Shown: piece by piece, positions 1 through 10,865 of the stretch
How the letters are laid out: each line of letters opens with the position of its first letter
Position numbering within the stretch: position 1 is the stretch's first letter
The notes under the pieces: model-generated
What the model was told of the DNA's origin: nothing
Database searches by the model: none
The model's input: only the letters and a program-made list of their open reading frames with translations
Position numbers and translations under genes: made by a program
Source: Carboxylicivirga linearis
GTDB taxonomy: Bacteria; Bacteroidota; Bacteroidia; Bacteroidales; Marinilabiliaceae
Direction of reading: 5' to 3'
Length of the DNA stretch: 64,000 nt
Assembly (NCBI RefSeq): GCF_018271995.1
Contig: NZ_JAGUCO010000016.1
Coordinates: 1-64,000, forward strand

Positions 1-410
1 GCTTCACTCATAAAGCTACGGTTCATTGCCTAAAATCGCTGAACTCGCTACGCTCAAACAGCACCGATTTTTACGGCAACTTCACCTTGCTTTATGGCTC
101 ACCAGACAAGGCCGATCTAGGGCTAACTTTTACTCGAGAATTTTCACCCACTCAATTTCATATTGAAATTATATTTCTATACCAAATTCAACTTTTCTCA
201 TCAATACCATCTGATAATCAACCTTAGTGAGGTTAATTAGAAATTTAATCGTTGGGTAATACCTTTTTATAAACCCCAATAATCTGTGCCTATTGAATTA
301 ATAATTAACCTGATAATATTGAATTTTAATCATTTTTATTCGATAATAATACCATACCTTAAAGTACTTTTTATATATTAGCATCCATAATAATTTATAC
401 CTATTAATTT
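1..410. other. Window edge, no assignable gene
   Basis: No gene can be assigned here. Frame 3 of the plus strand stays open from the window edge to a stop near base 224 without a usable start, so it could be the tail of a gene outside the window. The first 140 bases are richer in GC than the following 270, which are strongly AT-rich and look like ordinary spacer. The edge sequence may instead be part of a dispersed repeat, but no second copy is present in the window. Nothing resembling a terminator or RNA gene is visible. Confidence 0.3.
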
Positions 411-773
411 ATGAAAGAACTAGTACCGTATACTAACCTGGAAACGGTTAAAGACAGCAACGGAAAAATTACAGAATTTGTAGTACGCACCGTATCGTAC
501 CTGCCTAAAGACAGCAAAATTACTACCAGCGGCGAAGGCCCCGTTGCTGATAATGTTTTATATCGCCCTTTAACCATCTCTTACGATGGTACCTCAACAG
601 ACTTTGATTATTTTGGCGCCGACTTTACCATTAAACGCGAAGATGTTGGTTTGTTGGAAAGAGGAGTGAATGTTAAAGTTAAATCTACAACCAGTAGTTT
701 AAAATCGGCAACATATGGTGATCCTGAAGATGAAGGTGGAGTTTCTATTGACTATATAGAAGGTGATATTTAA
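411..773 (+). CDS. Hypothetical protein with acidic GG/EGD tail, upstream of TPR kinase
   Basis: A 120-residue protein of unknown function. The start is fixed by an in-frame stop two codons upstream. There is no signal peptide, lipobox or membrane segment. The body is polar and probably beta-rich. The last 18 residues, GDPEDEGGVSIDYIEGDI, closely match the C-terminus of the small lipoprotein at 2922-3095 (GDPEESGGLIIEYEGGDV), which points to a shared tail module on an otherwise unrelated body. It lies 9 bases before the kinase gene at 783 and is probably co-transcribed with it. The 5' two thirds are clearly richer in GC than the last ~110 bases, which resemble the AT-rich start of the kinase gene; this suggests a mosaic origin. 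A role as partner or ligand of the kinase is inference only. Confidence 0.6.
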   Translation: MKELVPYTNLETVKDSNGKITEFVVRTVSYLPKDSKITTSGEGPVADNVLYRPLTISYDGTSTDFDYFGADFTIKREDVGLLERGVNVKVKSTTSSLKSATYGDPEDEGGVSIDYIEGDI

Positions 774-782
774 AATTTTAAT

Positions 783-2834
783 ATGGAGTATACAAGAAAA
801 ATTGCGCAAAGAGTGACTTGTATACTCTATTTACTTTTATTTGTATTATACACTAATGCAAATCCATTTCCAACATTAAATCTATGCGACACTTGTAGTT
901 ATTCAGTGAATAAGAAAATCGCATATAGCAATTTACTTATTTCAAACATAGATTCTATACCTTACATTATTGATAATTTAAATAATCACGAGAAAATTAT
1001 ATATAATTCTCAATACGGTAAGTTATTATATAAGAAACAAAGATTTGATGAATCAATAAATCATTTAAAACCTATTCTTGATAATTCATCTGCAGAAGTA
1101 GAATGTATAGCTGATTGTCACTATTACTTGGCTAAGAATTTCAGTAAGAAAAATAATTCTGAACTAACTTTATACCATTTTGAAGTGGCGTATAATAAAT
1201 ATACGGAACTTGGGAAATGGGACAATTGTTGTATTGTATATATGGATTTAGGTAGTTATTTTTCAATGAAGAAGAATAATGAACTAGCAGAGAAATACTA
1301 TTTAACTTCATACAATATTTCTCAAAAGAAGAATATAAAACACTCAACAAAAATTGCAATTGAATTAAATCTTGCCAATCATTTCAATAAAGTTGAGAAA
1401 AGAAATATAGCCTTAAAGCATTATATAAATGTTGAGAAAGAAGCTAAGAAAATTAAAAAGGAATCTGTTATAGCTTTAGTCAATAATAACATTGGAACTA
1501 TATATCTAAAAAATGAAGAATTTAAAAAAGCTGAAGAGTATTTTAATAGTGCTCTAAAAATAAGAAGGGCATTAAAGGATAATAAAGGTATAGCTTCCAC
1601 ATTATTAAATTTACTTCATATTGAAATAAAAAATGGCAACAAACAAGAATCTAAGTTAATTCTGTCGGAACTTTCTGAAATTTTCAAAATGTCTCCACCA
1701 AATATTGCCGATCAACGACTTTTTAGTTATAACAAGATTAGATATTATGCATTACTAGGTAAAACTGAACTTATTGGAAAAGAACTTGGCGCATATGATA
1801 AACTTCAAGACTCCCTCTCTAACATCGCCTTCTCCGACAAACTTATCGAAATGCAAAAAAGCTTTGAAATACAGGAGCGGGATAAAGATATAGCCTTACT
1901 ACAAAAAGAAGATGAGTTAAAAGAAGCCCGTTTAAGCAATCAATTGATTGTTATTATTTCTATTGGAGCTGTTTTGCTGCTATTGATTGTATTGGGCTAC
2001 TTTATAAATAAGCAACGGGTAAAACTAAAACGATCGGAGAGCCATCTTAAAAAGCAGCAAAAAAGAATTAAGCAAATTAACAGCGATTTAAAAACATCGA
2101 ACCTGGCCAAAGATCGTATTCTGTCTATTATTGGTCATGATTTACGCGGCCCAATTGGTGGCTTAAAAGAATTGATTGAACTATATATGGATATGCCGGG
2201 CTATGAGGAAGAAGATTTTAAAAGTCTGCTAAAGGCAGCCCGCGAAGCATCCACAGGCTCGTACTACCTACTTGAAAACCTATTAACCTGGGCCAACTCA
2301 CAAAATGGTCAAATTGATTTTAAACCGTTAACCGCACCTCTTTTACCATTGGCAAAAAATAGTATCGATCTGTTGGATAGCTCAATTAACACACGCAATG
2401 TTTCGTTTAAATACGATATATCGCCTGCCATTAAATTAACTGCCGACCTTAACATGTTACGCACCATTATTCGTAACCTGGTATCTAATGCGGTAAAATA
2501 CTCGCCACCCGAAAGCTGCATCACCATTTCGGCCACCCAAAATAATGAAGAGACTTTTATTTGCATTGCCGACCAGGGCTATGGCATGACCGCCGAACAA
2601 TCGTCGGCTCTGTTTGAAAAGAAAGAAACCTATTTTATTGAAGCCGGATATAATGCTAAAGGTTCGGGCTTAGGTCTGGTACTGTGCCGCGAGTTTGTAG
2701 AACAGCATAAAGGTAAAATTTGGGCCGACTCTATTCCTAATAAAGGAACGAAGGTTTGTTTTACCATTCCGCTAAATATCGAGCAACCAAAAACTACCAC
2801 CGCACTTCATGAGCATACTCCTGCAATGAATTAG
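783..2834 (+). CDS. TPR-containing membrane sensor histidine kinase (orphan)
   Basis: A 683-residue sensor kinase. Residues about 10-27 form a signal peptide or first membrane segment. Residues about 60-370 are helical repeats of TPR type (for example the NNIGTIYLKNEEFKKAEEYF repeat) and should lie in the periplasm. A membrane segment follows at about 386-408, then a coiled coil. The dimerisation domain has the H-box SIIGHDLRGPIGG with His452. The ATPase domain has an N-box (NLVSNAVKYSP, about 562-572), G1 (DQGYGM, about 597-602) and G2 (GSGLGL, about 626-631). There is no receiver or DNA-binding domain and no response regulator nearby. The first ~1 kb is far more AT-rich than the 3' half, as if a sensor half had been joined to a different kinase half. 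Two partial copies of its 3' end lie downstream. Confidence 0.9.
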   Translation: MEYTRKIAQRVTCILYLLLFVLYTNANPFPTLNLCDTCSYSVNKKIAYSNLLISNIDSIPYIIDNLNNHEKIIYNSQYGKLLYKKQRFDESINHLKPILDNSSAEVECIADCHYYLAKNFSKKNNSELTLYHFEVAYNKYTELGKWDNCCIVYMDLGSYFSMKKNNELAEKYYLTSYNISQKKNIKHSTKIAIELNLANHFNKVEKRNIALKHYINVEKEAKKIKKESVIALVNNNIGTIYLKNEEFKKAEEYFNSALKIRRALKDNKGIASTLLNLLHIEIKNGNKQESKLILSELSEIFKMSPPNIADQRLFSYNKIRYYALLGKTELIGKELGAYDKLQDSLSNIAFSDKLIEMQKSFEIQERDKDIALLQKEDELKEARLSNQLIVIISIGAVLLLLIVLGYFINKQRVKLKRSESHLKKQQKRIKQINSDLKTSNLAKDRILSIIGHDLRGPIGGLKELIELYMDMPGYEEEDFKSLLKAAREASTGSYYLLENLLTWANSQNGQIDFKPLTAPLLPLAKNSIDLLDSSINTRNVSFKYDISPAIKLTADLNMLRTIIRNLVSNAVKYSPPESCITISATQNNEETFICIADQGYGMTAEQSSALFEKKETYFIEAGYNAKGSGLGLVLCREFVEQHKGKIWADSIPNKGTKVCFTIPLNIEQPKTTTALHEHTPAMN

Positions 2835-2921
2835 ACTTATTTAGTTTATCTTATTATTTTACATGCATAACTATAGATAATTATTATATTCGCCTTAATT
2901 CTAATTTAAACTTTATAATTC
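2835..2921 (+). promoter_or_regulatory. Conserved leader/promoter region of the small lipoprotein genes
   Basis: This 87-base spacer between the kinase stop and the first small lipoprotein gene recurs almost unchanged before the second (3538-3624) and third (4236-4323) lipoprotein genes. It contains TATATTCG at 2885-2892 (3588-3595 in copy 2; TACATTCG at 4287-4294 in copy 3), one mismatch from the Bacteroidota -7 element TAnnTTTG, about 30 bases before each ATG. No convincing -33 element is seen. Conservation in all three copies suggests each lipoprotein gene carries its own promoter. Confidence 0.45.
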
Positions 2922-3095
2922 ATGAAAAAATTATTTTTATTAATGGCTATTATGGCCACTGCATTTGCTTTTCAGGCTTGCGATAAGGATGATGTGCAAC
3001 CAGAGGACAAAACAATTGATACTAATTTAAGAGCTGGTGGAGATCCGGAAGAAAGTGGTGGTCTAATAATTGAATATGAAGGAGGAGATGTTTAA
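2922..3095 (+). CDS. Small surface lipoprotein, copy 1 (tail type GGLIIEYEGGDV)
   Basis: A 57-residue lipoprotein gene. Residues 1-19 are a signal peptide (MKKLFLLMAIMATAFAFQA) and Cys20 is the likely lipidation site. The lipobox FQAC is relaxed, as is common in Bacteroidota. The next residues, DKDDV, fit the K-(D/E)2 type of lipoprotein export signal known to place lipoproteins on the outer surface in this phylum. Residues 21-38 are identical in all three copies; the tail (39-57) is acidic, ending GDPEESGGLIIEYEGGDV. After removal of the signal, only about 38 residues remain, which is short for an enzyme or structural lipoprotein. It follows the kinase gene and is followed by a terminator. 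The function is unknown; a signalling or binding peptide is a guess from context. Confidence 0.75.
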   Translation: MKKLFLLMAIMATAFAFQACDKDDVQPEDKTIDTNLRAGGDPEESGGLIIEYEGGDV

Positions 3096-3117
3096 CACAT
3101 CTTTTAAAGAATATAAA

Positions 3118-3166
3118 GAAGCATTTGAGCAATAGTATAATTTACTATTTCATTTGCTTTTTTTTC
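3118..3166 (+). terminator. Terminator after lipoprotein copy 1
   Basis: An imperfect hairpin: the left arm starts AGCATTTGAGCAATAGTA and the right arm is TACTATTTCATTTGCT, followed by a run of T. It has the same position and form as the perfect hairpin after copy 2, with several mismatches in the left arm. Confidence 0.6.
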
Positions 3167-3222
3167 TCTGTACCTTGATTATAGAAATACAAGTTCAAAA
3201 TAAGGGTCTTTTAAAGTTTATG

Positions 3223-3537
3223 AGCTACATCACCATTTCGGCCACCCAAAACAATGAAGAGACCTTTATTTGTATTGCCGACCAAGGCTATGGCATGACA
3301 GCCGAACAATCGTCGGCTCTGTTTGAAAAGAAAGAAACCTATTTTATTGAAGCCGGATATAATGCTAAAGGTTCCGGTTTGGTACTGTGCCGCGAGTTTG
3401 TAGAACAGCATAAAGGTAAAATTTGGGCCGACTCTATTCCTAACAAAGGAACAAAGGTTTGTTTTACCATTCCGCTAAATATCGAGCAACCCAAAACTAC
3501 GAGCGCACTTCACAAGCATACTCCTGCCATGAATTAG
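3223..3537 (+). pseudogene. 3' fragment of histidine kinase gene (ATPase domain), copy 2
   Basis: This encodes roughly the last 104 residues of the kinase at 783-2834, from ITISATQNN to HTPAMN, with nearly identical sequence. It lacks the sensor, membrane segment, dimerisation domain and N-box, so it cannot be a working kinase. A six-base deletion turns the G2 box GSGLGLV into GSGLV. An open frame extends upstream to about 3154 through unrelated sequence, but there is no convincing start. It is best read as a duplicated fragment carried along with the lipoprotein gene that follows. A translated ATPase-only protein is possible but unlikely, given the broken G2 box. Confidence 0.8.
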
Positions 3538-3624
3538 ACTTATTTAGTTTATCTTATTATTTTACATGCATAACTATAGATAATTATTATATTCGCCTTA
3601 ATTCTAATTTAAACTTTATAAATC

Positions 3625-3789
3625 ATGAAAAAATTATTTTTTTTAATGGCTATTATGGCGACTGCTTTTGCTTTTCAGGCTTGCGATAAGGATGATGTAC
3701 AACCAGAGGACAAAACAATTGATACCAATTTAAGAGCCGATGGAGATGAGGGGGGAACTTTGATAGATTTTGAAGGTGGTGATGTTTAA
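3625..3789 (+). CDS. Small surface lipoprotein, copy 2 (tail type GGTLIDFEGGDV)
   Basis: A 54-residue lipoprotein. It differs from copy 1 at one residue in the signal peptide (Phe6) and then only after residue 38. Cys20 with DKDDV and the linker VQPEDKTIDTNLRA are the same. The tail is DGDEGGTLIDFEGGDV. It lacks the PEES segment of copy 1 but keeps the GG..I(D/E)(F/Y)EGGDV pattern. It has its own copy of the conserved leader and a strong terminator. Constant leader and variable tail is the notable feature; the function is unknown. Confidence 0.75.
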   Translation: MKKLFFLMAIMATAFAFQACDKDDVQPEDKTIDTNLRADGDEGGTLIDFEGGDV

Positions 3790-3811
3790 CACATCTTTTA
3801 AACAACATAAA

Positions 3812-3857
3812 AAAGCACATGAAATAGTAAGTTTTACTATTTCATGTGCTTTTTTTG
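3812..3857 (+). terminator. Strong terminator after lipoprotein copy 2
   Basis: A near-perfect hairpin with stem AGCACATGAAATAGTAA / TTACTATTTCATGTGCT and a very short loop, followed by T7. A-rich sequence before the stem would also allow it to act on the other strand. Confidence 0.85.
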
Positions 3858-3908
3858 CCCTGTACCTTCATTATAGAAATACAAGTTCAAAATAAGGGTC
3901 TTTTAAAG

Positions 3909-4235
3909 TCCGAAAGTTGCATAACCATTTCGGCCACCCAAAACAATGAAGAGACCTTTATTTGCATTGCCGACCAAGGCTATGGCATGACCGCCGAACA
4001 ATCGTCGGCCCTGTTTGAAAAGAAAGAAACCTATTTTATTGAAGCCGGTTACAATGCCAAAGGTTCGGGTTTAGGTTTGGTACTGTGCCGCGAGTTTGTA
4101 GAACAGCATAAAGGTAAAATTTGGGCCGACTCTATTCCTAACAAAGGCACAAAGGCTTATTTTACCATTCCGCTAAATATCGAGCAACCCAAAACTACGA
4201 GCGTACTTCACAAGCATACTCCGGCGATGAATTAG
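3909..4235 (+). pseudogene. 3' fragment of histidine kinase gene (ATPase domain), copy 3
   Basis: This encodes the last ~108 residues of the kinase, starting slightly further upstream than copy 2 (ESCITISATQNN). Here the G2 box GSGLGLV is intact. Compared with the full gene, most changes are silent; the exceptions are near the end (KVCF to KAYF, and TTTALHEH to TTSVLHKH). The N-box and everything before it are missing. The open frame can be extended to 3846 through the ~50-base unit-boundary sequence, but no good start is visible. It is probably not functional as a kinase. Confidence 0.8.
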
Positions 4236-4323
4236 ATTATATTTAGTTTATCTTATTAATTTACATGCATAACTATAGATAATTATTACATTCGCCTTAA
4301 TTCTAATTTAAACTTTATAAATC

Positions 4324-4491
4324 ATGAAAAAATTGTTTTTATTAATGGCTATTATGGCCACTGCATTTGCATTTCAAGCTTGCGATAAGGATGATGTGCA
4401 ACCAGAGGACAAAACAATTGATACCAATTTAAGAGCCGATGGAGATGAGGGGGGAACATCTATCGAATATGAAGATCCGGAATTACCATAA
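4324..4491 (+). CDS. Small surface lipoprotein, copy 3 (tail type GGTSIEYEDPELP)
   Basis: A 55-residue lipoprotein. Residues 1-38 match copy 1 (signal peptide, Cys20, DKDDV export-type signal, VQPEDKTIDTNLRA). The tail, DGDEGGTSIEYEDPELP, follows copy 2 up to the acidic stretch and then ends in DPELP instead of EGGDV. It is the last unit of the array and has a different terminator from the other two. The function is unknown. Confidence 0.75.
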   Translation: MKKLFLLMAIMATAFAFQACDKDDVQPEDKTIDTNLRADGDEGGTSIEYEDPELP

Positions 4492-4499
4492 GTAATAAA

Positions 4500-4541
4500 A
4501 CAAAAGAGGCAATCTTATCATAGGTTGCCTCTTTTGTTTTT
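4500..4541 (+). terminator. Terminator after lipoprotein copy 3
   Basis: A hairpin with stem CAAAAGAGGCAA / TTGCCTCTTTTG and an 11-base loop, followed by T-rich sequence. It is unrelated to the hairpins after copies 1 and 2 and so marks the right end of the duplicated array. Confidence 0.8.
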
Positions 4542-4720: not shown

Positions 4721-5152
4721 ATGATTGTTACTTCTACCTCAGCCATACAAAACATTGTACGTCTGCTCGACAACGGTTACCTGGTTTATATTCATAAATC
4801 AACTGGTAAGGTTACGGCAATTCCTGAATTTGATGGTTTTATTGACTTTAATGATGATACCAACTCTGAAGTGAATAATGTAGAAGCTAATCCGGATGAT
4901 TACCTGCAGGTTCAGGGAATGAATTCGCGTGAGATGTTTAACCTGATGATGGATTTTGCACAGGAACAGGAAGATATGAGTGTTACCCGAAAGCTGGTTG
5001 AAGCATTGCGTAAATCGGATGGTATTGGACATTTTAATAGTGCCATAAAACAAATGCCTGATATTAAAATGGAATGGCTCGAATACCGCGACGAAAAGCT
5101 GCAACGTTTTATTAAAAATAAATTGATGCGAAAACGCCAGATGTTTAATTAG
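4721..5152 (+). CDS. UPF0158 family protein
   Basis: A 143-residue soluble protein that resembles the UPF0158 family of uncharacterised proteins. The supporting region is the C-terminal half: a helical segment (REMFNLMMDFAQEQED), then LRKSDGIGHFNSAIKQMPDI and WLEYRDEKLQRFI, which is the family's typical arrangement. The N-terminus (IVRLLDNGYLVYIHKSTGKV) fits the small beta hairpin with which these proteins begin. No catalytic residues are known for the family. It stands alone, 180 bases after the lipoprotein array terminator, and is followed by a repeat-rich spacer. Confidence 0.7.
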   Translation: MIVTSTSAIQNIVRLLDNGYLVYIHKSTGKVTAIPEFDGFIDFNDDTNSEVNNVEANPDDYLQVQGMNSREMFNLMMDFAQEQEDMSVTRKLVEALRKSDGIGHFNSAIKQMPDIKMEWLEYRDEKLQRFIKNKLMRKRQMFN

Positions 5153-5220
5153 AAAACATACAAATCTTAGCATTTGCATACTATGCTAGAACAAAAGCCT
5201 TTCTATTCATTTATTATTAA

Positions 5221-5264
5221 CATAGCACTTACGTACTATGCTGTTACAAACGTCCCTCCGGGAC
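5221..5264 (+). repeat. 44-bp palindromic intergenic repeat, copy A
   Basis: CATAGCACTTACGTACTATG forms an imperfect hairpin arm pair, followed by a short link and CCCTCCGGGAC, itself a small GC-rich palindrome. The same 44-base arrangement recurs at 5286-5329 and 8614-8657 in the same orientation. Confidence 0.8.
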
Positions 5265-5285
5265 TTACATACCGCTTCATTATTC

Positions 5286-5329
5286 CATAGCACTTACGTG
5301 CTATGCTAGTACAGGCATCCCTCCGGGAC
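5286..5329 (+). repeat. 44-bp palindromic intergenic repeat, copy B
   Basis: The second direct copy, with one change in the hairpin (ACGTGC for ACGTAC), which improves pairing with the opposite arm. It again ends in CCCTCCGGGAC. Confidence 0.8.
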
Positions 5330-5508
5330 TACCTATATAGTTGAAGGGCGTAGCCCTGACTGTATTAAAACAGTAAGTGAGTGCTGTGATGAGCGAGAAG
5401 GAAATCAGAGCCCCGGAGGGGCGACTATGATTGTTGGCCTACACATTGCCCCCTTAATAGACATTCTAGCTAGTAGCCAGCAGCTATAAGCTATCAGCCT
5501 TTTTTAGA

Positions 5509-8448
5509 CTATTCATCCAAATTACGATTGCGTAAACGATACATCTTACTCACCTCAATGCTAAGAAAACCATATTCTTCTACCACAGTCCCGAAGATAT
5601 GATAGCATCCCGGACCACGAAACGGATACCGCGCTGCCGCTTCTACAAAATGAACCGTATCAATCCATCTTCCTTGCATATCGAGCCAGGTACCAAAAAA
5701 CATAGCTGATCCATTGGCTGTTCGGGTGGGTTTGCGCGTTACCAGATAACCTACTATCGACACATATTTATTAATCAGTATAGGTAAATCACGAGCACGC
5801 AAGGTACTGGGTAACTTCTCAGCCAATAGTTTAAACGGGCTAATTAGCGGAAAGCCCAGTAGCTCAATTTCATCAAAAGCATTCTCTAAATCGTGACTCC
5901 ACAACTCGGGCAACTCAAAAGCTTTCACCTCAGCAGGTGCAAATAAGCTAGCTTCCGCTTTTACCTTTTTAGTATATCCTAACAGATGATGGGCATCCCA
6001 TAATAACTCTTTCTTGCCTTTACCAGTAAAACGAAACGCTCCTACCCGTATCAGAATCAGTAGTTGCTCCAGCGAAATTCCCGTACGTGTTACAAAGTCA
6101 GACAAATTTTTAAACTGACCATGCAGCTCCCTATCTTCCAATATTTTCCGTATCGTTCCTTTCTCCAGATTGTACAACATCATAAAACCCAAATAAATTC
6201 GATTACTCGAAATACGATTGAACCAATCACTCCGATTCACACAAGGCGCTTCCACCTCTGCCCCATTAATGCGAGCCTCGTGCAGATATAACTCGGGTCG
6301 ATAAAAACCTCCACCATTATTGAGCGTTGCCACCATATATTCCAGCGGATAATGCGCTTTGAGATACAACGCCTGATAACTCTCAATGGCATAACTGGCC
6401 GAATGGCCTTTGGCGAAAGCATAGTTGGCAAAGCTCTCAATCTGCATCCAGATGTCTTTGACAGTTTGCTCAGCATACCCTTTTTTGCGACAATTGCTGT
6501 AGAATTTATCACGCACCTTCCAGAATTCATTACGTTGCCTGAACTTCCACGACATTCCCCTACGTAGGATATCAGCTTCATCCAGAGTGAGACCCGCAAA
6601 ATAATGCGCCACCTTAATCACATCCTCCTGATACACCATCACACCATAAGTCTCATCCAATATTTCGTATAACTGCGGAAGATCCTGCCTGGCTTTCTCT
6701 CTTCGTTTCTCATCCTGAAATCTTAGGATATACTCACGCATCATACCGCTTTTTGCAACTCCGGGGCGAATAATAGAACTAGCCGCCACCAAACGCAGAT
6801 AATCATCAGCCTTTAACTTAGTCAACAACATACGCATGGCCGGCGATTCAACGTAGAAACAACCAATGGCCTTTCCCACCTTCAGATGCTCTTTAATTGC
6901 CTCATCTTCTTTAAACTTATTGATGTCGTGAATATCAATCTCCACTCCCTTGTTTTCTTTGATGATATCCAATGCATCCTTAATCTTACTCAACCCACGC
7001 TGACTAAGAATATCGAATTTATGCAAGCCCACATCTTCGGCCACATACATATCAAATTGTGTTGACGGGAAGCCTTTAGGCAGCATCTCGGTAGCAGAAT
7101 AATACGATATGGGCTTTTCGGATATAATGATACCGCTGGAATGAATACTGCAATGACTGGGAAATCCGTCGATGTATTTGCTATACTGGATCACCCATTT
7201 ACCATACTGCCCGTAATTTTTGGGTGATGGATCTTTTTGCAGGGCCACAATCTCCTCATCGGGCAAACCAAACACTTTGCCTATCTCTCTGAAAGCTGAT
7301 TTATGATTAAAAGTGATATAAGTTCCCAACAAAGCAACATGATCATAGCCGTATCGCTCAAAAATATAACGTGTCACATCATCGCGATCAGTCCACGAAA
7401 AGTCGATATCAAAATCGGGTGGTGAAGTACGATAAGGATTAATAAAACGCTCGAAATAAAGGTTCAGATCAATGGGATCAACATTGGTAAGTCGCAACAA
7501 ATAAGCCACCAAACTATTGGCTCCACTACCCCGCCCCACATAATAATAGCCCTGATTGCGGGCATACTTCACAATATCGTTAGTCACTAAAAAGTAAGCA
7601 CAGAACCCCAAATCGCGGATGGTATTCAGCTCTTTATTCATCCGTTCAATTACTTCTTTAGGACGATTGGGGAAACGATATTTCAAGCCTTTCTCACACT
7701 CATCTTTCAACAACAGAAAATCTTTTTCGTCGGAGCCCAAGAAATAGCGTTTATTCTTATTTACTCCCAGCTCAAAATCAATATTGCACGACTCCATCAG
7801 CTTTTGCGTATTGTGTAATATGGCCGGATACCTGCCAAACAAACTAATCAACTCATCTTTCGACAGAAGCTTTTCATTCATCGTTCCCTGCTCCTCTTTG
7901 GGTAGTTTGCTCAGTAACATATTCAGGTCGATGGCACGCAACAAACGATGCACATTATAATCGTGCTTATTCCGGAAAGTCACCGTATGCTGGATTACCA
8001 ACTTACTTTTCTGATCTTTCCATACCGAGAAAGGCAGGTTCTTCAACTGATCGGGCCGTATCCCTACAAACTCGTTATAACGCAACTCACGCTTTTTGTT
8101 TGTAAACGGATAGATAACATAGGCATGTTTAAATTCAGGCGCCTTGGTGTCCAATTCTTCTCCCGAATGACGATAATCGGTAAGATGTTCGCACAACTCG
8201 CGATAGCCCTCGTTGTTGCGGGCAATGCCCACATACATCTGCTCCACTCCATTCCGGAAATCGATGCCCACCACAGGCTTAATCCCAAACTCAGCCGAGC
8301 GACGAACCATATCAATACAGGCCGAAGTACTGTTGATATCAGTAATTGCAAGTGTACTGTAGCCTTTTTCAGAAGCTTCCTTCAGCAAATCTTCGGAGGA
8401 GATGGTCCCGTATTTAAAACTATAATATGTATGACAATTAAGTAGCAC
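5509..8448 (-). CDS. dnaE2: DNA polymerase III alpha-type subunit, DnaE2-like (error-prone type)
   Basis: A 979-residue C-family DNA polymerase. It has an N-terminal PHP domain (residues 1-~200, starting LLNCHTYYSFKYG), the polymerase palm with the metal-binding PDFDIDF motif (residues ~345-351) and the third acidic residue in KFDILSQRGL, the GRGSGANSLVAYLL loop, finger region, tandem HhH region and a C-terminal OB-fold. It is shorter than the usual replicative DnaE of Bacteroidota (about 1,200 or more residues). The PHP motif TDIN replaces the metal-binding TDH, so that domain may be inactive. It is encoded with a Y-family polymerase (8775-9977) and an S24 repressor (10140), the usual partners of damage-inducible DnaE2. 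I infer translesion synthesis rather than bulk replication. Direct 44-base repeats lie on both sides of the gene. Confidence 0.88.
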   Translation of the reverse strand: MLLNCHTYYSFKYGTISSEDLLKEASEKGYSTLAITDINSTSACIDMVRRSAEFGIKPVVGIDFRNGVEQMYVGIARNNEGYRELCEHLTDYRHSGEELDTKAPEFKHAYVIYPFTNKKRELRYNEFVGIRPDQLKNLPFSVWKDQKSKLVIQHTVTFRNKHDYNVHRLLRAIDLNMLLSKLPKEEQGTMNEKLLSKDELISLFGRYPAILHNTQKLMESCNIDFELGVNKNKRYFLGSDEKDFLLLKDECEKGLKYRFPNRPKEVIERMNKELNTIRDLGFCAYFLVTNDIVKYARNQGYYYVGRGSGANSLVAYLLRLTNVDPIDLNLYFERFINPYRTSPPDFDIDFSWTDRDDVTRYIFERYGYDHVALLGTYITFNHKSAFREIGKVFGLPDEEIVALQKDPSPKNYGQYGKWVIQYSKYIDGFPSHCSIHSSGIIISEKPISYYSATEMLPKGFPSTQFDMYVAEDVGLHKFDILSQRGLSKIKDALDIIKENKGVEIDIHDINKFKEDEAIKEHLKVGKAIGCFYVESPAMRMLLTKLKADDYLRLVAASSIIRPGVAKSGMMREYILRFQDEKRREKARQDLPQLYEILDETYGVMVYQEDVIKVAHYFAGLTLDEADILRRGMSWKFRQRNEFWKVRDKFYSNCRKKGYAEQTVKDIWMQIESFANYAFAKGHSASYAIESYQALYLKAHYPLEYMVATLNNGGGFYRPELYLHEARINGAEVEAPCVNRSDWFNRISSNRIYLGFMMLYNLEKGTIRKILEDRELHGQFKNLSDFVTRTGISLEQLLILIRVGAFRFTGKGKKELLWDAHHLLGYTKKVKAEASLFAPAEVKAFELPELWSHDLENAFDEIELLGFPLISPFKLLAEKLPSTLRARDLPILINKYVSIVGYLVTRKPTRTANGSAMFFGTWLDMQGRWIDTVHFVEAAARYPFRGPGCYHIFGTVVEEYGFLSIEVSKMYRLRNRNLDE

Positions 8449-8774
8449 TTTTTTAGAGATTAGACTTTTTAGACGTTAGACTGATAAATATGTAGAACTG
8501 TTGAATTGTCGAGTTGTTAAATTGATTTTTTACAAATAAACGATTCAACGAATCGGCAAATCAACTCTCAATACAGACAGCCCTCCGGGCTTTGGTTTTA
8601 CATTATTTTTAATCATAGCACTTACGTACTATGCTGGTACAGTCGTCCCTCTGGGACTCCAAAATAGATGATGAATTGCAGAACTGCCCAATTGTTAAGT
8701 TGATTTTATTACAATTAAACATACAAGCTAGTAGCTATCAGCCATTAGCTTAATTCACAATTCATCATTAATAA
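8449..8774. other. Repeat-rich spacer between dnaE2 and dinB
   Basis: No gene. It holds reiterated short words (GTTGAATTGTCGAGTTGTTAAATTGA near 8500-8526 and a variant near 8672-8704), a GC-rich CCCTCCGGG remnant near 8581, the third copy of the 44-base palindromic repeat, and AGCTA-type words near 8727-8752. Because of its length it may separate dnaE2 from dinB transcriptionally, although both run leftward. No terminator is clear. Confidence 0.6.
8614..8657 (+). repeat. 44-bp palindromic intergenic repeat, copy C
   Basis: Same orientation as copies A and B, with the hairpin identical to copy A. The GC-rich end is CCCTCTGGGAC, one base different. Together with A and B it brackets dnaE2. Confidence 0.8.
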
Positions 8775-9977
8775 TTAACCATTAAGTACTGCCGGTTGTC
8801 CATTAAAAGGGTTGGGTCGGGCAATGGTTTTAGAACTCATTCCAATGGCACGAGCCACTGCTTGTTGTCCATAACGATCGCGTACCTTATCCATAGCCTG
8901 ATAGAGTTTAATCAGCTTAAACGAGTCTTCGAACAGTCTTATCTGGTAGCTTCCGCCAATCAAATGACTAAAACGAACGCCCACCAATCGTACCAGTACC
9001 CGACGATCGTATACCTTATCAAACAAATCTTTCACCACCTCAATTAGAGTATGATCCAACGATGTATACGGAATGCGTTTTTGCTTACTATGCGTTTGAA
9101 AATCGCTGTAACGCACTTTTACCGTTACACAGGCTGTAAGCTTATTTCCATGTCGTAGCTGAAATGCCAGATTCTCGGCCATCCCCATAACAATGGCACG
9201 CAGTTTATATACATCGGTAGTATCTTTATCGAAAGTACGCTCCATCGAAAGCGATTTACGTTCGTGATAAGCTACCACAGGTGAATTATCAATGCCCTGC
9301 GCCTTTTTCCAGATAACATTACCGTTTTTACCCAGTACACGCTCCATCAATTCAACTGGCATCTCCTGAACCGTTTTTACACGCTCCACTCCCATGCTTC
9401 GCAGCAAACGATAAGTTTGATTTCCCACCATTGGTATTTTCTTCACAGATAAAGGTGCCAGAAAGGGTTTTTCATAACCATCTTCGATACGCATATAGTT
9501 ATTAGGCTTAGCCTCACCCGTTCCTACCTTCGACACCGTTTTACTGGTTGATAAGCCAAAGGAAATAGGCAGATGCGTTTCGCGAATAATCTCATCACGC
9601 AATTCCTGAGCCCACATGTAGGTCTGCTTTACATAGCGATCCATCCCACTCACATCCACATAAAACTCATCAATTGATGATTTTTCAAACAAAGGAGAGC
9701 GATCTTTTATAATCTCTGTCACAGCATCTGAAAACTTGCTATACACTCCACTATTTCCCCTTATCACCGTAGCATGCGGACACAACTGCCTTGCCATACG
9801 CATGGGCATGGCCGAATGAATACCGTATTGCCTCGCCTCGTAACTGCACGCAGCCACTACTCCCCTGTCGGAAGTTCCTCCTATCAGCACCGGACGATTG
9901 TTTAGTTTACTATCCATCAGGCGCTCGCACGACACAAAAAAGGTGTCTAAATCCAGATGTAAAATTGACTTTTGCAT
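8775..9977 (-). CDS. dinB: Y-family DNA polymerase (DinB / UmuC type)
   Basis: A 400-residue lesion-bypass polymerase. The N-terminus ILHLDLDTFFVSCERL carries the first metal-binding Asp, and SSIDEFYVDVSGM has the Asp-Glu catalytic pair (residues ~103-104). VVAACSYEARQYGIHSAMPM is the typical finger segment. A helix-hairpin-helix region (VKKIPMVGNQTYRLLRSMGV) and the little-finger domain (SMERTFDKDTTDVYKL onward) follow. The C-terminus ends without a recognisable clamp-binding motif. It is transcribed divergently from the S24 repressor, with 162 bases between, and upstream of dnaE2 on the same strand. The family inserts bases opposite damaged templates. Whether it is nearer Pol IV or the ImuB/UmuC branch cannot be settled by eye; the catalytic residues are intact, unlike ImuB. 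Confidence 0.9.
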   Translation of the reverse strand: MQKSILHLDLDTFFVSCERLMDSKLNNRPVLIGGTSDRGVVAACSYEARQYGIHSAMPMRMARQLCPHATVIRGNSGVYSKFSDAVTEIIKDRSPLFEKSSIDEFYVDVSGMDRYVKQTYMWAQELRDEIIRETHLPISFGLSTSKTVSKVGTGEAKPNNYMRIEDGYEKPFLAPLSVKKIPMVGNQTYRLLRSMGVERVKTVQEMPVELMERVLGKNGNVIWKKAQGIDNSPVVAYHERKSLSMERTFDKDTTDVYKLRAIVMGMAENLAFQLRHGNKLTACVTVKVRYSDFQTHSKQKRIPYTSLDHTLIEVVKDLFDKVYDRRVLVRLVGVRFSHLIGGSYQIRLFEDSFKLIKLYQAMDKVRDRYGQQAVARAIGMSSKTIARPNPFNGQPAVLNG

Positions 9978-10139
9978 TTATGTCGATATTTTCGTCATTT
10001 TCCTGACTATAATTTAATCATTTTATTTATCTTTATGAAATAAATAGGTAGTTAGTTTTTAGTCAGAAGGCAGAAGAAATTGAATATTAAGAACAAAAAA
10101 AGCTATCGGCTAAGAGCTACCTGTTAAAAGCTAAAACAT
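9978..10139. promoter_or_regulatory. Divergent dinB / S24 repressor control region
   Basis: A 162-base region between divergent genes, expected to carry both promoters and the repressor's own operator. An inverted repeat, TATTTAT (10024-10030), 9 bases, ATAAATA (10040-10046), is a candidate operator. TATCTTTA at 10028-10035 is one base from the TAnnTTTG -7 element for the repressor gene and overlaps the left arm. The part near the repressor start (10063-10139) is filled with reiterated AGCTA-type words. No E. coli-type LexA box is present. Confidence 0.45.
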
Positions 10140-10865
10140 ATGTATTTCGCAGAAAACATCAAGTTCCTACGCCAACGACGAAAACTATCTCAAAGCGATT
10201 TGGCCACCAACTTAGAATTGACACGAACCACATTGGCGGGGTACGAAAAAAGTGTGCAACCACCATTTAAAACACTAATTAAATTTGCCGATTATTTCAA
10301 GATATCACTTGATGCTTTAATCCGTTATAACCTGCAAGAGCTATCCGAATTTCAGTTATCGCAGATAGAAGATGGTTTTGATATTGATGTTACAGGACAA
10401 AAGCTACGTTTACTGACAGTGTCGGTAGATAAAGACGGAAACGAGAATATAGAAATGGTGCCTGTTAAAGCGCAGGCTGGTTATACATCAGATTATGGTG
10501 ATATGGAGTTTATTTCATCTCTACCCAAGTTTTCGTTACCTTTTTTACCTCAGGACAGAACCTATCGCACCTTTCAGATCAAAGGAGATTCGATGTTACC
10601 CATTCCCGAAGGATCGTGGATTACGGGAAGCTACGTGCAAAACTGGAAAACCATTAAAGACGGCACTCCATGCATTATTGTTACCCGCGACGAAGGAATT
10701 GTTTTTAAAGTAGTATACAATCAATTTGAGAAAAACCAAACCTTATTACTGGTATCAACCAACAGGAACTATAAACCCTACCAAATAGAAGCCAATAAAA
10801 TAATTGAGGTATGGCAATTCGTTACTTATAATGGTTTTGAGGTGGAGAGAGGTACAACATTATAG
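10140..10865 (+). CDS. LexA/UmuD-like repressor: XRE helix-turn-helix + S24 peptidase
   Basis: A 241-residue repressor. Residues 5-60 form a Cro/C1-type helix-turn-helix (LRQRRKLSQSDLATNLELTRTTLAGYEKS). Residues ~105-235 form an S24 peptidase domain with the nucleophile in KGDSMLPI (Ser151), the general base in IVFKVV (Lys190), and an Ala113-Gly114 pair in AQAGY, the expected self-cleavage position. In this family, RecA filaments trigger self-cleavage and derepression after DNA damage. The gene is divergent from dinB, with dnaE2 beyond, so it is the likely regulator of that module. It could also be a stand-alone phage-type regulator, but no phage genes are nearby. Confidence 0.88.
   Translation: MYFAENIKFLRQRRKLSQSDLATNLELTRTTLAGYEKSVQPPFKTLIKFADYFKISLDALIRYNLQELSEFQLSQIEDGFDIDVTGQKLRLLTVSVDKDGNENIEMVPVKAQAGYTSDYGDMEFISSLPKFSLPFLPQDRTYRTFQIKGDSMLPIPEGSWITGSYVQNWKTIKDGTPCIIVTRDEGIVFKVVYNQFEKNQTLLLVSTNRNYKPYQIEANKIIEVWQFVTYNGFEVERGTTL

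Follow-up and report, generated by a model that had tools for sequence, protein, structure and literature searches.

The locus and its two core genes

We analysed the first 64,000 nucleotides (positions 1 to 64,000) of contig NZ_JAGUCO010000016.1 of Carboxylicivirga linearis (Marinilabiliaceae, Bacteroidota; assembly GCF_018271995.1), referred to below as the window. A locus at the very start of this contig carries, in this order, a small gene (ORF1), a gene for a tetratricopeptide repeat (TPR) histidine kinase, a gene for a tiny lipoprotein (lipoprotein 1), two units that each consist of a kinase 3' end and a further lipoprotein gene, and a UPF0158 gene (Table 1). An earlier reading of the bare letters (the sequence-only reading) had described a full TPR kinase, three tiny lipoprotein genes and two kinase 3' fragments, and this description was accurate. 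Comparison with related loci points to the C-terminal tail of ORF1 and the TPR sensor of the kinase as one exchangeable block, and we consider it on balance probable that the locus encodes a polymorphic, pherotype-like ligand-receptor pair with downstream orphan ligand modules.

ORF1 matched no Pfam or NCBIfam family above cut-off, and a fold search with it found no PDB entry at an E of 0.001 or lower; the mean predicted local distance difference test score (pLDDT) of its AF2 model was 82.9. The tail contains a tyrosine (Y115) that is invariant in an 18-sequence alignment. ORF1 was present in 13 of the 14 Carboxylicivirga genomes examined. It matched in 2 of 295 genomes of the order, both members of Marinilabiliaceae, and, at E 0.01, in 16 of 60 genomes of the family; among these 16, the G080 match (E 0.0056) was taken as chance. 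G012 was the sole genome of the genus set without a detectable ORF1. A pattern-limited scan of genome contigs gave 17 ORF1 loci, and the comparison set consisted of 20 loci, the window included. Nine of these 20 have a tandem pair of TPR kinases (A and B) 3' of ORF1, kinase A of G010 being split over two contigs. The other 11 show one TPR kinase, and three of them (L091, L103 and L109) are located at the end of a contig. The window locus has one TPR kinase plus the fragments.

The kinase carries H452 within an HDLR motif. Its AF2 model (mean pLDDT 73.3, mostly above 80 in the TPR part; predicted TM-score 0.47) contains a TPR superhelix at residues 34-325, followed by a signalling helix that starts at residue 328. 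Identity within the genus per 20-residue block was 13-32% up to residue 340, 56% at residues 341-360 and 40-88% further on, with 23% in the last block. The best NCBIfam match of the kinase was the FimS equivalog NF053520, at 200.7 bits and thus below the cut-off of 600. All of the 50 fold-search matches listed, from a total of 1649, were histidine-kinase-type proteins, and none of them covered the TPR part.

The ORF1 tail and the TPR sensor are exchanged as one block

The clearest case was observed between C. mesophila (locus L093) and C. sediminis (L113). Their ORF1 proteins were 94% identical in the body and 37% in the tail, their A kinases 31% in the TPR part and 96-98% in the core, and their B kinases 94% in the TPR part. 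At the DNA level, an alignment of 855 bp with 94.7% identity ends at ORF1 codon 107. It is followed by 1115 and 1102 bp, respectively, of unrelated sequence, which form one contiguous block of ORF1 tail, gap and sensor, and then by 3125 bp with 91.9% identity, which begin at kinase A codon 347/341 and extend through kinase B. A control orthologous TPR kinase of the same two species was 97% identical in its own TPR. As these alignments show, related species differ by replacement of the tail and the TPR sensor as a single block. Between L093 2766-4808 and L113 7399-9423, silent divergence was 0.41 for the kinase A 3' end and 0.21 for kinase B; because the former is higher, the import may include part of the core.

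The sequence-only reading had proposed that kinase-lipoprotein pairs are exchanged by recombination within the conserved ATPase-coding region. Block exchange in relatives, with the conserved kinase core as one flank, bears out a part of this proposal. However, the exchanged part is the ORF1 tail plus the TPR sensor, and its edges (ORF1 codon 107 and kinase codon 341-347) lie outside the ATPase region.

The same pattern was seen across the genus. Over 55 pairs of 11 genomes (G010, G012 and G013, with a partial kinase A or no ORF1, were left out), mean identity was 31% for the kinase A TPR, 70.5% for its core, 76% for the ORF1 body and 39% for the ORF1 tail. The control kinase had means of 53% in the TPR and 86.6% in the core over these pairs, and the target TPR was less identical than the control TPR in 55 of 55 pairs. 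The control kinase therefore argues against generic TPR hypervariability as the explanation.

Tail type follows sensor type in four of five TPR clades

The TPR data rejected two groups of the kinase-core tree, namely C. mesophila plus C. sediminis (approximately unbiased test, p-AU 1.3e-8) and the window plus L105 plus L089 (p-AU 1.3e-4); the tested clades were picked after the identities had been seen. In a 14-kinase tree of the TPR part, the tails of L091 and L092 end DYEGGLV, those of L105 and L113 read VVEYDDxxxP, those of L093, L107, L090 and L096 follow EY(E/D)-acidic-L(P), and those of L097 and L109 contain (D/E)YEGDI. Tree and tails together show that tail type tracks TPR type in four of five TPR clades, the window's own clade being the exception.

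Tail similarity was then compared within and between clades in a test on 14 loci (L098-L103 left out) that was designed on the TPR tree after a null Mantel test, with L109 and L096 added once the pattern had appeared in a 20-row tree, so its counts are exploratory: similarity was 0.63 within all five TPR clades versus 0.39 among the remaining pairs (49 of 100000 permutations), 0.72 versus 0.38 when the window's clade was omitted (10 of 100000), and the two TPR clades that cut across the core tree gave 312 of 100000. Grouping the tails by kinase-core clades gave no signal (19109 and 86588 of 100000 permutations), nor did the ORF1 body when it was used as a control against the TPR clades (12814 of 20000).

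The tail occurs on other carriers

In L099 (Alkalitalea), a lipoprotein gene between ORF1 and the kinase gene (2616-2795) encodes a protein ending GVIVEYGWP, and ORF1 of the same locus ends GVIIDYGWP. In L098, a gene 5' of ORF1 (1868-2053) encodes a 61-residue peptide with a GG-leader-like N-terminal part and an ORF1-type tail; this peptide matched no family, and a further convincing copy of it was not found in 60 genomes of Marinilabiliaceae. When compared with the ORF1 tail of their own locus, window lipoproteins 1, 2 and 3 were equalled by 0, 6 and 23 of 5000 composition-preserving shuffles. The L099 and L098 proteins were equalled by 0 of 5000 each, counts that are biased since both were chosen by motif scan. 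An unguided search with lipoprotein 1 also matched the C-terminus of the G006 ORF1 (E 0.007). The tail of lipoprotein 2 groups with L092/L097-type tails, and that of lipoprotein 3 was nearest to L090 or L094, with L093 and L107 close, at all five lengths tried. These matches show reuse of the tail on unrelated carriers. No convincing tail motif was found near other TPR kinases in 10 further short loci (3-5 kb).

All four tail-bearing lipoproteins (window 1-3 and L099) fit C-X-K-(D/E)2, which is given as the optimal surface-export signal in Capnocytophaga (PMC5080379). By analogy, the motif may work as a surface-export signal in Carboxylicivirga as well. Lipoproteins 1 and 3 and the L098 and L099 peptides had no family above cut-off. 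Against the PG1828 family NF050142 (cut-off 50), lipoproteins 1 and 3 scored 18.9 and 19.2 bits with residues 1-28 covered. In lipoprotein 3 and the L099 lipoprotein, weak BSAP-5 matches (10.8-16.7 bits, cut-offs 150-380) were confined to the N-terminal signal region.

Two alternatives are touched by these carriers. ORF1 could act in the cytoplasm to regulate the kinase or proteolysis, its tail serving as a tag for docking or degradation, and tail and TPR could be associated by linkage hitch-hiking. In line with this, a hydrophobic 19-mer is absent from 20 of 20 ORF1 sequences, and just 9 bp separate the ORF1 gene from the kinase gene in the window. We hold this to be quite unlikely, since the tail is also found on carriers bearing export signals and hypervariability begins at the tail, the body being excluded. 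It is very improbable that the TPR domain or the tail is the target of a phage, bacteriocin or other aggressor, with swapping as escape and the tail as an interaction partner without signal. The TPR would lie behind the outer membrane and the ORF1 body is conserved, although the surface-export signal of the lipoproteins would fit such a target. Replacement by long-diverged alleles, which is usual in arms races, would fit it too.

The kinase-lipoprotein array

One kinase site was found three times in the window, at 2523, 3232 and 3924, which gives unit spacings of 709 and 692 bp. The 300-nt repeat pairs of the array are 96% and 93% identical and cannot be due to chance. A leader of about 87 nt is common to all three units. 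The terminator-like inverted repeats of units 1 and 2 are related, and that of unit 3 is unrelated to them. The unit 2 kinase fragment has a 6-bp in-frame deletion in the G2 box (GSGLGL to GSGL).

That the kinase segments differ mainly at silent positions, as the sequence-only reading had noticed, was confirmed by counting. The three pairwise comparisons gave 13/2, 17/5 and 10/3 synonymous/nonsynonymous differences. Under neutrality, the binomial probabilities of these counts are 1.7e-7, 5.1e-8 and 3.2e-5. Silent divergence among the segments was 0.15-0.25 over the whole segment and 0.15-0.21 over the first 86 codons; over these codons, it was 0.67 between the window segments and kinase A of L105, the nearest relative of the window as judged by the control kinase. 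Because the segments differ at 4-7% of sites, they are no assembly duplicate. Their low nonsynonymous share and their silent divergence suggest that they separated long ago and diverged mostly while encoding working kinase ends. The lipoproteins behaved similarly, with near-exclusively silent differences in the first 38 residues (5/1, 5/0 and 6/1), and their C-terminal tails vary in both sequence and length.

The kinase fragments of units 2 and 3 start at an identical junction. The simplest history would be a single truncation followed by duplication of the unit. Alternatively, the junction may have spread by gene conversion. The sequence-only reading had set exchange against a single recent slippage with no other pair in relatives. 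One truncation followed by unit duplication is what the shared junction suggests, and a recent slip is ruled out by the between-unit silent divergence of 15-25%. An origin of the fragments from the second tandem kinase (B) of the relatives was not supported, because all three segments were nearer to kinase A of L105 (proportion of silent differences, pS, 0.62-0.67) than to kinase B (0.80-0.86). The search for further near copies in the same genome, which the sequence-only reading had proposed, yielded none: no second near copy of the kinase segment was present, the next-best kinase by score was 30% identical, and the other kinases were at most 37% identical to the window kinase over the core.

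Ordinary amplification would account for the array as a tandemly duplicated lipoprotein gene that carried the kinase 3' end as a passenger; the sensor would then simply respond to the environment and evolve fast, and the C-termini would have no more than a minor motif in common. The common junction of units 2 and 3 agrees with this, as do the restriction of strong lipoprotein matches to the window's genome among the 14 genus genomes and the position of the target kinase core, which is also below the control core in conservation. We nevertheless regard this account as unlikely, because it leaves unexplained the abrupt block replacement with ends at tail and sensor, the tail-TPR association and the silent excess in the fragments.

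Proposed mechanism

In the ligand-receptor interpretation, the ligand would be the short acidic C-terminal tail of ORF1 with its invariant tyrosine, and the receptor would be the TPR superhelix of the adjoining histidine kinase, which is probably periplasmic. The signal would pass from the TPR through the long helix and the transmembrane segment to the conserved kinase core. Recombination in the conserved ORF1 body on one side and in the kinase core on the other would move tail and sensor together as a cassette, and lineages would therefore differ in signal specificity (the pherotype). In the window, a surface lipoprotein would additionally display the tail. A kinase 3' end and a lipoprotein gene would have been left behind as a unit and then multiplied into two orphan modules, whose lipoproteins would present other tails on the same carrier, at least one of them like a foreign type. 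Tail-TPR binding, the topology of the TPR, export of the ORF1 tail, surface display and output are predicted. A role in kin or density sensing, and derivation of the orphans from former pherotypes, may be envisaged. A more complete scheme is doubtful, namely a Gram-negative pherotype system of Marinilabiliaceae in which a periplasmic TPR kinase detects an exported tail and exchange of tail-plus-sensor cassettes changes the specificity. In this scheme, the window strain would keep a downstream store of ligand modules, whose surface lipoproteins would present its own and foreign tails as a reserve, as decoys or as mimics of the signal.

Several observations weigh against the ligand-receptor interpretation. 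The target kinase core was itself less conserved than the control core, so part of the TPR contrast reflects a faster locus. The window's own TPR clade (window, L089 and L111) has no common tails (similarity 0.21, 0.48 and 0.33), and when tail identity was set against TPR identity for all 91 pairs, a plain Mantel test was null (rho 0.07, 1352 of 5000). The L094 tail resembles those of the L090/L093/L107 clade, yet the half-length L094 TPR falls outside it. Lipoprotein 1 had its own ORF1 as nearest tail only at 18-20 residues, and ranked it 3-7 of 20 at 10-15 residues. The sequence-only reading had anticipated further kinase-lipoprotein pairs in relatives; motif scans found tail-bearing lipoproteins in just 2 of 20 loci (the window and L099), and the downstream array in one. 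Shared truncation plus duplication does not account for the excess of silent differences that separates units 2 and 3. An export signal is absent from ORF1, an N-terminal hydrophobic stretch was over threshold in 16 of 26 kinases with the window's kinase below it, and no cognate response regulator was identified for the kinase. Since tail and sensor are adjacent, linkage alone could make their alleles co-travel. The case for binding comes from the confinement of variability to tail and sensor and from the reuse of the tail on other carriers.

Comparison with known systems

In the agr and comCD pherotype loci of Gram-positive bacteria, a variable peptide is combined with the variable sensor half of a histidine kinase. 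In agr, agrBDC is group-specific and agrA is not (PMC8768832). The present locus resembles both in its hypervariable ligand and sensor half with a conserved kinase core and flanks, and in allele groups that cut across strain phylogeny (here in four of five TPR clades, with the Mantel test null). It differs in its TPR/HATPase_c receptor, in a tail on a folded carrier as the ligand, and in the Gram-negative envelope. No homology to AgrC/ComD or AgrD/ComC was found for the kinase, ORF1, lipoproteins 1 and 3 or the L098 and L099 peptides. No processing gene was found among the listed neighbour genes, and no genome-wide search for one was made. An exported, processed peptide that activates its cognate receptor alone, as in agr and comCD, is putative here.

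RRNPP proteins (Rap, Rgg, NprR, PlcR and PrgX) are stand-alone cytoplasmic TPR regulators of Gram-positive bacteria that bind a reimported peptide. Binding of a short peptide by a TPR superhelix is likewise proposed here, whereas the TPR is fused to a transmembrane segment and HATPase_c, and its membrane side is a prediction. FimS of P. gingivalis is a TPR histidine kinase like that of the window, which scored below the equivalog cut-off; we know of no ORF1 or tail associated with FimS. TPR histidine kinases abound in Bacteroidota, and to our knowledge few of them have a known ligand.

The sequence-only reading knew of no described system with this layout, a statement that needs qualifying. 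In CDI/Rhs systems, orphan modules consist of a main-gene fragment plus a small gene, with reloading by recombination proposed (PMC3150448), and downstream modules of this architecture are also what the window has. Unlike in CDI/Rhs, the fragment here corresponds to the conserved part, and the variable end belongs to the small gene. Pfam and NCBIfam scans of the locus proteins gave no toxin or immunity families above cut-off. The nearest report found within the phylum appears to be that on Bacteroidales RiPP clusters, where GG-leader peptide genes lie near TPR-like or histidine kinase genes and pheromone binding is suggested (PMC10352776). Those clusters carry radical SAM and PCAT genes, and the accessible text of that paper does not mention ORF1, tail exchange or kinase fragments (PMC10352776). 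Among open-licence PMC papers, no such system was found described in Bacteroidota.

From sequence data alone, a ligand and a receptor domain are proposed here, together with the exact borders of the exchange and several types of specificity. If true, polymorphic peptide recognition of the agr/comCD sort would exist in Gram-negative Bacteroidota, and orphan-module arrays, which are known from toxin systems, would also occur at signalling loci.

Feature coordinates and further observations

Table 1. Features of the window locus (positions in the window)
Feature	Position	Strand	Basis or remark
ORF1, 120 aa	411-773	+	18-sequence alignment: conserved beta-rich body, variable C-terminal tail
ORF1 variable tail GDPEDEGGVSIDYIEGDI, proposed ligand	717-770	+	left edge of the block exchanged in relatives
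TPR sensor histidine kinase, 683 aa	783-2834	+	Pfam TPR_12 4.7e-15, HATPase_c 7.2e-23; HisKA weak
TPR superhelix region, residues 34-340, hypervariable sensor, probably periplasmic	882-1802	+	per-block identity profile
Transmembrane segment, residues 388-406	1944-2000	+	hydropathy; within model helix 328-451
Leader 1, 5' of lipoprotein 1	2835-2921	+	unit alignment; copies at 3538-3624 and 4236-4323
Lipoprotein 1, 57 aa, tail GGDPEESGGLIIEYEGGDV	2922-3095	+	lipobox Cys20 (by inspection), then DKDD
Inverted repeat, terminator-like, unit 1	3115-3163	.	repeat search; unlisted in a separate site scan
Kinase 3' fragment, unit 2	about 3220-3537	+	open frame, shortened G2 box
Lipoprotein 2, 54 aa, tail DGDEGGTLIDFEGGDV	3625-3789	+	ORF and tail comparison
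Inverted repeat, terminator-like, unit 2	3809-3855	.	placed on the - strand by the site scan
Kinase 3' fragment, unit 3	about 3906-4235	+	open frame
Lipoprotein 3, 55 aa, tail DGDEGGTSIEYEDPELP	4324-4491	+	tail nearest ORF1 tails of other species
Inverted repeat, unit 3, unrelated to unit 1/2 repeats	4497-4541	.	unlisted in the site scan
UPF0158 protein, flanking gene	4721-5152	+	family match; present beside some relatives' loci

The UPF0158 gene was matched by tblastn near the locus in 6 of 15 and 3 of 5 loci of two locus sets of relatives. A promoter scan gave sigma-70-like matches at 2858 and 3561, within leaders, with no evidence of function.

In relatives with tandem kinases, HATPase identity was 62.6% within a locus versus 54.8% between loci, to which no significance test was applied. 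Kinases A and B of L090 (2695-6978) were 86% identical in the HATPase part and 27% in the TPR sensor. Recent gene conversion between A and B was considered and none was shown, the A-B pS of L090 being 0.62.

Adjoining the locus, window positions 5509-10865 contain a DNA polymerase III alpha-like gene, a Y-family polymerase (IMS) gene and an HTH/S24 regulator gene, which together look like an SOS mutagenesis cassette. Interspersed intergenic repeats of the CATAGCACTTACGT... type occur 3' of the locus (5166-5330); inspection by eye showed them in L089 as well, where they lie between its two kinases, A and B (5116-5604).

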